A DNA stretch of 6,478 nucleotides, taken from positions 1-6,478 of the forward strand of contig DOUV01000292.1 in the NCBI GenBank assembly GCA_003520455.1, written 5' to 3'. Shown here piece by piece: positions 1-1,742 of the stretch (positions within the stretch are counted from its first letter, which is position 1; each line of letters opens with the position of its first letter). A model generated the notes under the pieces. That model made no database searches. It had not been told where the DNA came from and saw only the letters and a program-made list of their open reading frames with translations. A program made the position numbers and the translations under genes. This DNA comes from Chloroflexota bacterium (GTDB lineage: Bacteria; Chloroflexota; Anaerolineae; Ardenticatenales; Ardenticatenaceae).

Positions 1-191
1 ATTTGGGAGATGGCGCCCCGGGTTCGGTGGCAACTCATGCAATCGGCCGCTGCGGCGGCTGTGGTGGGCGCTCCCCTGGCCGGCGGGGGCATGCCGTGTT
101 CGGCGCCGGCCGACTTGGTCGCGCTGAGGGCGAGGACCGCCGCCACGCCAACCACCAGCAGGCTCATGTATGTGAATCGCAACTTGGTCAA
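1..191 (-). CDS. Secreted c-type cytochrome, N-terminal part (runs off left edge)
   Basis: The minus frame from a TTG at 191-189 reads 63 codons to the window edge without a stop. Residues 1-8 are basic (MTKLRFTY). Residues 9-24 are a hydrophobic stretch, and a small-residue region near residues 28-30 (AGA before EH) suits signal peptidase I cleavage. After a Pro/Ala-rich linker comes CMSCH (C51, C54, H55; bases 41-27), the covalent haem c attachment motif with the proximal His ligand. The protein is therefore expected in the periplasm, or anchored to the outer face of the membrane, as an electron carrier. The TTG start is chosen because AAGGAG (199-204) lies 7 bases upstream; an ATG at 195 is out of frame and too close to that site, and an in-frame ATG at 167 would cut into the signal peptide. 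It follows the M20-like gene by 21 bases, so the two are probably cotranscribed. The distal axial ligand and the cytochrome class lie outside the window. Confidence 0.82.
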   Translation of the reverse strand, partial: MTKLRFTYMSLLVVGVAAVLALSATKSAGAEHGMPPPARGAPTTAAAAADCMSCHRTRGAISQ

Positions 192-212: not shown

Positions 213-1742
213 TCAGGCAGAATGTGCATGGCGTGCCGAACTCGGCTCATGACCGAGGAGGTCTCTCACCGTAAGGGCGATGGTGCCGGCTGCCACGCTC
301 ATGTCCTCGATCCAGATCCGCTCATTCGGCGTCGGCCATTGCTCAAAGATGCTGCGGTCTCCAGGACCGTAGAGCACTGTGGGGATGCGCGCCTGCGCCG
401 CCAGATGGCCATCCCCCACCTCTCCCAGAAAGGCCCCGGCGCCGATGATTGGCCGGCGCCGGACGAGGCGTTTGTGCCATTTTCTGAGCGTTCGGACGAG
501 CGCCGTATCCTCGCGTCCAACCAGCGGGGGAATGGTCAGGCCGTCCGGCGAAGGAACCTGCGCTGTCACGTTGAGGCCGGGCTCGACCGCTCCCACCTGG
601 TTGAGAAGGCGCTCCAGGTCGTTCAGCATTGTCTCCTCATCCTGGCCGGGCACTGTCCGAACGTGAAAGTCCAACCAGCACCGACGACTGTCGCCCTCGA
701 TCGCATCGATGTTCAGTTGAGGGAACCCGGGCAGAGCCGCGTGGGGCGCAAAGTTCAGCCAGCCACCCGGCTTGATGGGCACGCGGCTCGGTCCCAACGC
801 CTGGACGATCTGGGCCATCTGCGCGACGGGATCAGGTGGCCGGGAATCAGCGCCCTGAGTGCTGCGGAAAGGGCGCGGGTGAGCGGTTGTCGAGATTCGA
901 ACTGGGAGGGCGCCCACCGCCAGGTTGACGATATTGAGATCGGTATTCTGGACGTCGACGGTCCAATCCGGACGTAAGCCGCTCTCTAAGAGCGTCTGCA
1001 TCCCTCGGCTCGCTCGCTTGTGACCGACGAGCGGGGCCAGCACGACGTTTCCTTGCAGCGAAAGCCCTGCATTCTTGAGCGCCAGGATCGCCGCGATCAT
1101 GGTGGCGATGCCGCCCTTTCCATCCTGGACGCCACACCCATACACCCATCCCCGCCCGGCGTGGCCCTGGAATGGAGGGCGGTCCCATCCCTCTGCCGGC
1201 GGCTCATGGTCCATGTGGCTGACGAGCAGGATCGTAGGTCCGTCTTCACGCCCCGGCCACCGTCCGACGGGTTGTTGACTTCTGCGTCCCGACCCGGGAG
1301 CGTCTTCCACCGGTTGGAGTTCCACCTGGAGATCCATGGCGGCCATGACGCCGGCCAGATAGGTCGCCAGGGGACTCTCGTCAAACGTAGGGCTGGGGAT
1401 GGCAACCATGTCGAAGAGGAGATCGATCAGACGCTTTCGATCCACGTAGAGGAGAACCCGCTGATCGTCCGGCTCGATGATGTTGTTGTCGTAGTCGGGC
1501 AGCTGTACACACACCGGGCAGGGGTTATAGGATGGATTGTTGTCCAGCCAGGCAACCAGGGCATCGAGCGTATTCTCGATCCGCACGTAGCGGAGGTTTC
1601 CTAATCTGAAATCTTCATCAAGCTCGCACTCGCTTCGCTCGTGGTCAAGGTCGTGGACCTCACGACGATTGCGCGTGGTCCACGGCCGTGGCCGGATGTT
1701 CAGCATGAACCTCCACTCGGTCTCAGGAGGTCGTCTCGCCAT
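213..1742 (-). CDS. M20-family metallopeptidase-like protein, probably catalytically altered
   Basis: The 509-residue product has the M20/M28 (ArgE, DapE, carboxypeptidase G2-like) layout from about residue 100. It shows SHMDHEPP (H176, D178), GVQDGKGG (D207), a dimerisation-domain stretch after TDLNIVN (268-273), and the C-terminal LYGPGD...PNERIWIED (457-480). Active relatives hydrolyse peptides or amides with two zinc ions. Here the usual DEE is GHK (240-242), so the catalytic Glu is H241 and a ligand Glu is K242. The Glu of the usual EPTDLN is Q265, and the C-terminal ligand His is W469. Only H176, D178 and D207 remain, which suggests loss or change of catalysis. The frame is intact. Residues 1-95 are an extension I do not recognise, with NPCPVC at 73-78. 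No signal peptide is seen, so it is probably cytosolic. The ATG at 1742 is chosen over one at 1706, whose GGAGG is only 3 bases away; the frame remains open to 1829, but that would enter the terminator hairpin. The cytochrome c gene follows by 21 bases. Confidence 0.85.
   Translation of the reverse strand: MARRPPETEWRFMLNIRPRPWTTRNRREVHDLDHERSECELDEDFRLGNLRYVRIENTLDALVAWLDNNPSYNPCPVCVQLPDYDNNIIEPDDQRVLLYVDRKRLIDLLFDMVAIPSPTFDESPLATYLAGVMAAMDLQVELQPVEDAPGSGRRSQQPVGRWPGREDGPTILLVSHMDHEPPAEGWDRPPFQGHAGRGWVYGCGVQDGKGGIATMIAAILALKNAGLSLQGNVVLAPLVGHKRASRGMQTLLESGLRPDWTVDVQNTDLNIVNLAVGALPVRISTTAHPRPFRSTQGADSRPPDPVAQMAQIVQALGPSRVPIKPGGWLNFAPHAALPGFPQLNIDAIEGDSRRCWLDFHVRTVPGQDEETMLNDLERLLNQVGAVEPGLNVTAQVPSPDGLTIPPLVGREDTALVRTLRKWHKRLVRRRPIIGAGAFLGEVGDGHLAAQARIPTVLYGPGDRSIFEQWPTPNERIWIEDMSVAAGTIALTVRDLLGHEPSSARHAHSA

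Follow-up and report, generated by a model that had tools for sequence, protein, structure and literature searches.

The 6,478-nucleotide (nt) stretch of Chloroflexota DNA analysed here (contig DOUV01000292.1; hereafter the window) encodes a protein of the M20 peptidase fold that probably does something other than peptide cleavage, and whose rebuilt catalytic centre probably holds one metal at most. The protein belongs to an unnamed, uncharacterised group of M20-fold proteins, defined in this analysis and called here the HK clade, and the most fitting account of it is that an M20 site which had already been rebuilt was altered once more, not that a peptidase lost its residues singly. The explanation we favour, and to which we give an even chance, is that the protein is an offshoot of a clade in which the two-metal centre was rebuilt, likely into a one-metal centre, and that the site changed again in the window's lineage, not for peptide cleavage. 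The clade-level pattern is well supported by the alignments; the window protein itself may have relocated a carboxylate at its metal site or lost the metal. The gene and the residues concerned are the following, with residue numbers of the window protein (P0001) and coordinates as positions in the window.

213..1742, minus strand: gene of the M20-fold protein of the HK clade, 509 residues, ATG at 1742, stop at 215-213.
1209..1217, minus strand: H176-M-D178, the metal-site-1 His and its Asp partner, retained.
1122..1124, minus strand: D207, the bridging Asp of canonical M20 proteins, retained.
1017..1025, minus strand: G240-H241-K242, where canonical M20 proteins have Asp-Glu-Glu (the base and then the site-2 ligand).
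948..956, minus strand: D263-V-Q265, where the clade has Asn-x-Glu, the Glu being a site-1 ligand.
621..917, minus strand: lid (dimerisation) domain, residues ~276-374 in the structure model, nearly all missing in the relative P0004.
429..431, minus strand: F438, which is Arg in 40/40 clade representatives.
321..338, minus strand: W469-P-T-P-N-E474, standing where the stretch with the site-2 His would be.

The residues named in the preliminary description of this DNA (H176, D178, D207, G240-H241-K242, Q265 and W469) all match the translation, and its assignment to the M20 fold is borne out. Peptidase_M20 (PF01546) is the sole Pfam family at E ≤ 0.001 in the window protein, matching residues 172-493 with E 1.6e-16 and 61.3 bits against a gathering score of 24.6, and the structure model has the bilobal fold with its lid domain. 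The frame is intact, as had been claimed, with 509 codons from ATG to stop and none internal, and its G+C content at codon positions 1/2/3 (0.70/0.47/0.73) is coding-like and similar to that of the neighbouring genes. Of the canonical five metal ligands (His, Asp, Glu, Glu, His), H176 and D207 are retained, the two Glu being replaced by K242 and Q265 and the C-terminal His being gone; the general-base Glu is also absent, with H241 instead. The preliminary description had placed the C-terminal His at W469. Its loss holds, as there is no His in the stretch, but the exact position maps only roughly, since the MAFFT column of the His lands on residue 467, whereas the position four residues before the conserved Glu is P470.

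In DapE, the ligands given in PMC4012986 are H68, D101 and E164 for Zn1, and H239 (in the truncated enzyme), D101 and E136 for Zn2, and the same paper describes the metal ligands of the M20 and M28 families as strictly conserved. A matching ligand set is reported for the M20A aminoacylases in PMC11511702, which names as catalytic one more His and the Glu that precedes the site-2 Glu. Translated into DapE terms, the alignment indicates that the HK clade has lost Zn2 (K242, no His), exchanged the base Glu for H241 and retained Zn1 (H176, D207 and E265). Two DapE structures, 3isz and 4o23, are mono-zinc according to their titles.

Homologues sharing the GHK motif were sought and found, and they form a clade. 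The profile search gave 112 proteins, and the alignment (A4) comprises 106 of 116 proteins, with P0009, P0065, P0098, P0102, P0105, P0106, P0108 and P0114-P0116 omitted; the HK clade makes up 86 of its rows, P0065 standing outside these counts. H176, D178, D207 and K209 are present in 86/86 of these rows, H241 in 85/85 filled rows, K242 in 84/85 (P0085 has Gln), E265 in 81/85 and W469 in 68/84, whereas the canonical comparison rows (n = 13: ten proteins and three PDB chains) have Glu at 241, 242 and 265 in all cases. The trees left out the A4 rows P0002, P0004, P0074, P0079, P0085, P0089 and P0090, which are duplicate, short or gappy. In the quick tree 79 HK-clade rows form one clade, with a Shimodaira-Hasegawa-like approximate likelihood ratio test (SH-aLRT) support of 100. 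In 79 aligned clade rows, position 241 always holds His and position 242 Lys, and His is not among the eight commonest letters of the canonical C-terminal His column. In the careful tree, built from 59 rows hand-picked from 103 and with the columns for residues 207, 240-242, 265 and 469-474 removed, 37 HK-clade rows are grouped with support 100/100, and the clade is therefore independent of the motif. The window protein thus has His-Lys for Glu-Glu, and its clade holds together as a single branch when those columns are excluded from the tree.

Since GHK and the absence of a C-terminal His extend over the clade, against Glu in all 13 canonical rows, they are not accidents of the window protein, and the several independent losses that had been proposed give way to changes fixed across the clade. 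Among 40 clade representatives of 380 residues or more, chosen from 82 non-window rows so that no pair reaches 70% identity (mean 42%), 21 columns are invariant; H241 is present in 40/40 and K242 in 39/40. This conservation at such divergence sustains the earlier view that selection for a non-canonical role is to be preferred over decay. A binding or chaperone role as the default is not sustained, because other clade members retain the complete His-Asp-Glu triad of metal site 1.

The same alignment makes it very improbable that the window protein is a normal M20 peptidase or deacylase and that only the alignment of its active-site residues is at fault. In its favour, the 99% identical relative P0002 is named M20/M25/M40 family metallo-hydrolase, and 22/22 sampled clade members match TIGR01910 (the NCBIfam model of ArgE/DapE deacylases) at E 1e-10 or better. 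P0001, however, reaches 105.9 bits, below the curated cut-off of 217.6, no NCBIfam model is above its cut-off for the window proteins among the matches listed (25 of 42), and His241/Lys242 throughout the 79 rows and the scarcity of His in the C-terminal column speak against misalignment. The names carried by clade proteins, where there are any, are acetylornithine deacetylase, desuccinylase-like, and M20 metallo-hydrolase or metallopeptidase; the lost residues make such names doubtful.

By analogy, a one-metal small-molecule enzyme would be the likeliest function of the clade, because 5-nitroanthranilate aminohydrolase (5NAA-A; PDB 5k8m-5k8p, from Bradyrhizobium), a non-peptidase on the M20 fold, also lacks site 2. 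In the mechanism that we consider likeliest for the clade, site 2 is gone (Glu to Lys242, His lost), the base Glu is replaced by His241 and site 1 (His176, Asp207 and Glu265) stays; the single site-1 metal would bind and polarise a small substrate, His241 would act as the base, and the ammonium group of Lys242, we infer, would stand in electrostatically for the second metal. The closest precedent that has been worked out is 5NAA-A, in which site 2 is also lost and an amino group is replaced by a hydroxyl. The window's subclade differs further: the acid is lost at 265 and gained at 263, Arg438 is replaced by Phe and a conserved Cys-containing module is added at the N-terminus, and this second change of the site would most likely serve an altered ligand or substrate and not peptide cleavage.

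The window protein is not a one-off. P0002 comes from an Ardenticatenaceae (Chloroflexota) assembly, on a contig of 10.4 Mb, and P0003 (76% identical), P0004 (67%) and the fragment P0065 (66%) are further members of the subclade; the alignment-based search from the subclade gave no members beyond these. P0001-P0003 retain 18/21 clade-invariant columns and break N263 to D, E265 to Q and R438 to F, while P0004 has D, K and F at 263, 265 and 438 and has lost three more invariant columns with its missing lid (residues 275-373). At 263 and 265, 81 of the 86 rows carry N,E, three carry D,Q, a single row carries D,K and another is gapped; the D,Q/K rows are exactly the four subclade rows, so that an acid is gained at 263 in the rows that lose the ligand at 265. 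H176, D178, D207, K209 and H241 are kept in 5/5 subclade rows. P0065 has His241 with Asn242, and ends before the 263/265 stretch. The Asn242 of P0065 and the lid loss of P0004 lean towards a relaxed catalytic constraint; the contig of P0004 measures 2.2 kb and none is listed for P0065, and either protein may be an artefact. By comparison with the other clade rows, N263D, E265Q/K, R438F and the following extension appear specific to the window's lineage.

1443..1742, minus strand: residues 1-100, an N-terminal extension that the subclade conserves and that is mostly of low confidence in the structure model.

Residues H30, C39, C75 and C78 of the extension are invariant in 5/5 subclade rows. Between P0001 and P0003, residues 15-100 are identical at 77/86 positions and residues 171-256 of the core at 67/86, and in other subclade pairs extension and core are about equally conserved. 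The extension has no Pfam family (the best match was DUF7068, E 0.13). None of the other 20 clade rows in a further alignment (A3) shows it; one of them, P0084, carries an extension of different appearance.

A special case of the favoured explanation would be that Asp263 assumes the role of Glu265 and a one-metal site works in a shifted geometry, which we consider possible but doubtful. The exchange of Asn-x-Glu for Asp-x-Gln/Lys in exactly the window's rows argues for it, and in the structure model residue 263 ends a strand, so positions i and i+2 could share a face. Against it, one clade amounts to one event, which allows no statistics, and the Lys265 of P0004 would bring a positive charge next to the metal.

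Somewhat easier to credit, though short of an even chance, is a pseudoenzyme without metal. Catalysis may be retained in the clade, but the subclade would have lost the metal and bind a ligand or partner through its M20 fold and N-terminal extension. The site-1 Glu is Q, Q, Q and K in the four subclade rows covering 265, in line with this idea, as are the Asn242 of P0065, the near absence of the lid in P0004 (a domain that catalysis by DapE needs, according to the title of PMC4012986) and an extension conserved at least like the core. The invariance of H176, D178, D207, K209 and H241 in the subclade, the 18/21 invariant residues retained by P0001 and the acid gained at 263 where that at 265 is lost tell against it. 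That the gene is decaying, or its sequence an artefact, is hardly credible: three clade-invariant residues are lost and P0004 and P0065 are short, as decay or artefact might produce, but the 509-codon frame is undamaged, its G+C content is coding-like at each codon position, and the relatives of 99%, 76% and 67% identity share D263 and F438.

Some further features of the clade were noted. In the HK subgroup P0073, P0075-P0078 and P0080-P0088 the WPT motif gives way to a variable stretch of greater length, which ends with PDER or a similar sequence. Contigs of 27866, 4196, 20647, 5286 and 8678 bases each recur for two different HK-clade proteins (the pairs by contig being P0005/P0021, P0006/P0025, P0014/P0029, P0016/P0035 and P0036/P0063), and in 4/5 pairs the two come from the same two sister subclades of the quick tree (GHK and AHK). 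The matching contig sizes, the sole basis for this pairing, suggest tandem paralogues that perhaps form a heterodimer. The scans of genome contigs and viral contigs gave no confirmed relative; they used few short patterns and do not imply absence. Among plasmids no record reached 60% identity or above, and of the three plasmid records examined one is canonical (S. meliloti) and two belong to the P0092 type described below, with HK members in 0/3.

The preliminary description had also linked the M20 gene to a cytochrome c and a molybdo-flavoenzyme. The features concerned are these.

6001-5261, minus strand: gene of a 2Fe-2S subunit of the xanthine-dehydrogenase type, in which the twin-arginine motif SRRDFL was recognised by eye.
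5259-2899, minus strand: gene of a molybdopterin subunit of the xanthine-dehydrogenase type.
2902-1883, minus strand: gene of an FAD subunit of the xanthine-dehydrogenase type.
1857-1829, minus strand: terminator-like hairpin that separates the FAD-subunit gene from the M20 gene, with 12 pairs, 10 of them G-C, and then a T-containing tail TGTTTTGGGT.
3..191, minus strand: start of a cytochrome-c-like gene, with TTG at 191, a signal-like segment and CMSCH, running off the window.

The three molybdo-flavoenzyme genes lie upstream of the M20 gene on the same strand, and none of the NCBIfam matches listed for the enzyme is an equivalog above its cut-off; the twin-arginine leader on the 2Fe-2S subunit suggests that it is probably periplasmic. 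The link to these genes is weak because of the strong terminator-like hairpin between. The window has seven terminator-like sites against 4.6 (standard deviation 2.5) in shuffles, a number that itself means little, but the stem of this hairpin is longer than those of the other six, and the fold of the intergenic RNA beats 198/200 shuffles (z -3.09). Past the hairpin, ~40 nt upstream of the M20 ATG, a TATAAT was seen by eye at 1787-1782 (minus strand), with no good -35 noted; the promoter scan did not list it. As the hairpin separates the molybdo-flavoenzyme genes and the TATAAT lies downstream of it, the M20 gene probably has its own transcript. The cytochrome-c-like frame begins 21 nt past the M20 stop and is linked to the M20 gene by spacing only; the fragment has no Pfam match. 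Rfam gave no match at its gathering score in the window, and the repeat search of the window nothing relevant to the M20 protein. It is conceivable, though unlikely, that the HK clade represents a catalytic type new to the M20 fold, with a Lys ammonium for the second metal and His for the base Glu, in which the window's lineage then shifted a carboxylate by two residues and coupled the Cys module and a c-type cytochrome to it, giving a chemistry new to the fold.

The clade forms a natural series, from a two-metal site to a conserved His-Lys site with one possible metal and to a lineage minus another ligand, which lets the rebuilding or loss of a metal centre be studied on few proteins. The His-Lys variant was not reported in the titles and abstract openings of the literature on inactive, pseudo- and mononuclear M20 proteins and on 5NAA-A, a survey mostly outside subscription papers.

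Compared with known systems, the M20A deacylases DapE and ArgE (7uoi, 5vo3 and 8uw6) have in common with the window protein the bilobal fold with a lid and the HxD and D.K[GS] motifs, but they have two metal sites and a base Glu, whereas the window protein has 2/5 ligands (H176 and D207). The protein of 3pfo (RPA2325, a "putative" acetylornithine deacetylase by title) differs from the window protein in that the Glu pair is present, as are the site-1 Glu and the His. In the P0092-P0095 group (GEL, SNMK; e.g. WP_020952256 from the Paracoccus aminophilus plasmid pAMI4) the site-2 Glu is lost, as in the HK clade, but Glu is found at 241 and Asn at 207; this group and P0091 adjoin the HK clade in the careful tree (97/83). 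On pAMI4 the M20 relative (6995-8233; SNMK, GELQGG, YNTMPDER) is preceded by genes of an ABC transporter and by another M20 gene (P0121, with DEE), and genes for a racemase and a D-cysteine desulfhydrase adjoin it, surroundings that hint at uptake and breakdown of amino-acid-like compounds.

In 5NAA-A, according to PMC9814641, an enzyme-bound divalent metal binds the aromatic substrate and the amino group is replaced by hydroxyl, and PMC11903332 counts it among hydrolytic enzymes thought to use pathways of the nucleophilic aromatic substitution (SNAr) type. From the sequence of 5k8m, 5NAA-A and the HK clade appear to be alike in being without the site-2 Glu and the C-terminal His and in keeping the site-1 His and Glu. 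5NAA-A has no WPT motif, and the window protein differs from it in Q265, D263 and the N-terminal extension; the site-1 Glu that 5NAA-A keeps is thus absent from P0001, while it is general in the clade. P0096, P0097 and P0104-P0109 share most 5NAA-A features, P0104 being clear kin (E 3.3e-52 to 5k8m). A branch of the careful tree (98/91) joins 5NAA-A, P0096, P0097, P0104, P0107, P0109, P0091, P0092 and P0094 with the HK clade, and the approximately unbiased (AU) test disfavours a grouping of the HK clade with the 3pfo group alone (p 0.020).

Several observations weigh against the explanation we favour. 5NAA-A reads GEI for DEE, keeping Glu at 241 where the HK clade has His, has Asn for D207 and an insertion after the GEI motif, in which the clade differs, and lies on a long branch (1.54 in the careful tree). 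The clade profile scores the canonical pair better (3pfo 3.3e-41 and DapE 7uoi 1.4e-30, against 1.2e-28 for 5NAA-A), and the AU test does not reject a grouping of the canonical 3pfo group with the HK clade, P0091, P0092 and P0094, minus 5NAA-A (p 0.237), both tested groupings having been picked after the tree was seen. Gln or Lys for the site-1 Glu in the subclade, and Asn242 in P0065, speak against an intact one-metal site there. The dimer-domain His, found in 9/9 canonical rows examined and 52/79 HK-clade rows (Phe in 20/79), is missing in the window protein, beyond the losses described earlier, and P0001 and P0003 have neither residue. No assayed clade member turned up in the searches made.

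Taken with both AU results, the 98/91 branch favours, without proving it, a single loss of site 2 shared with 5NAA-A. The HK clade would join 5-nitroanthranilate aminohydrolase as evidence for non-peptidase chemistry on the M20 fold.
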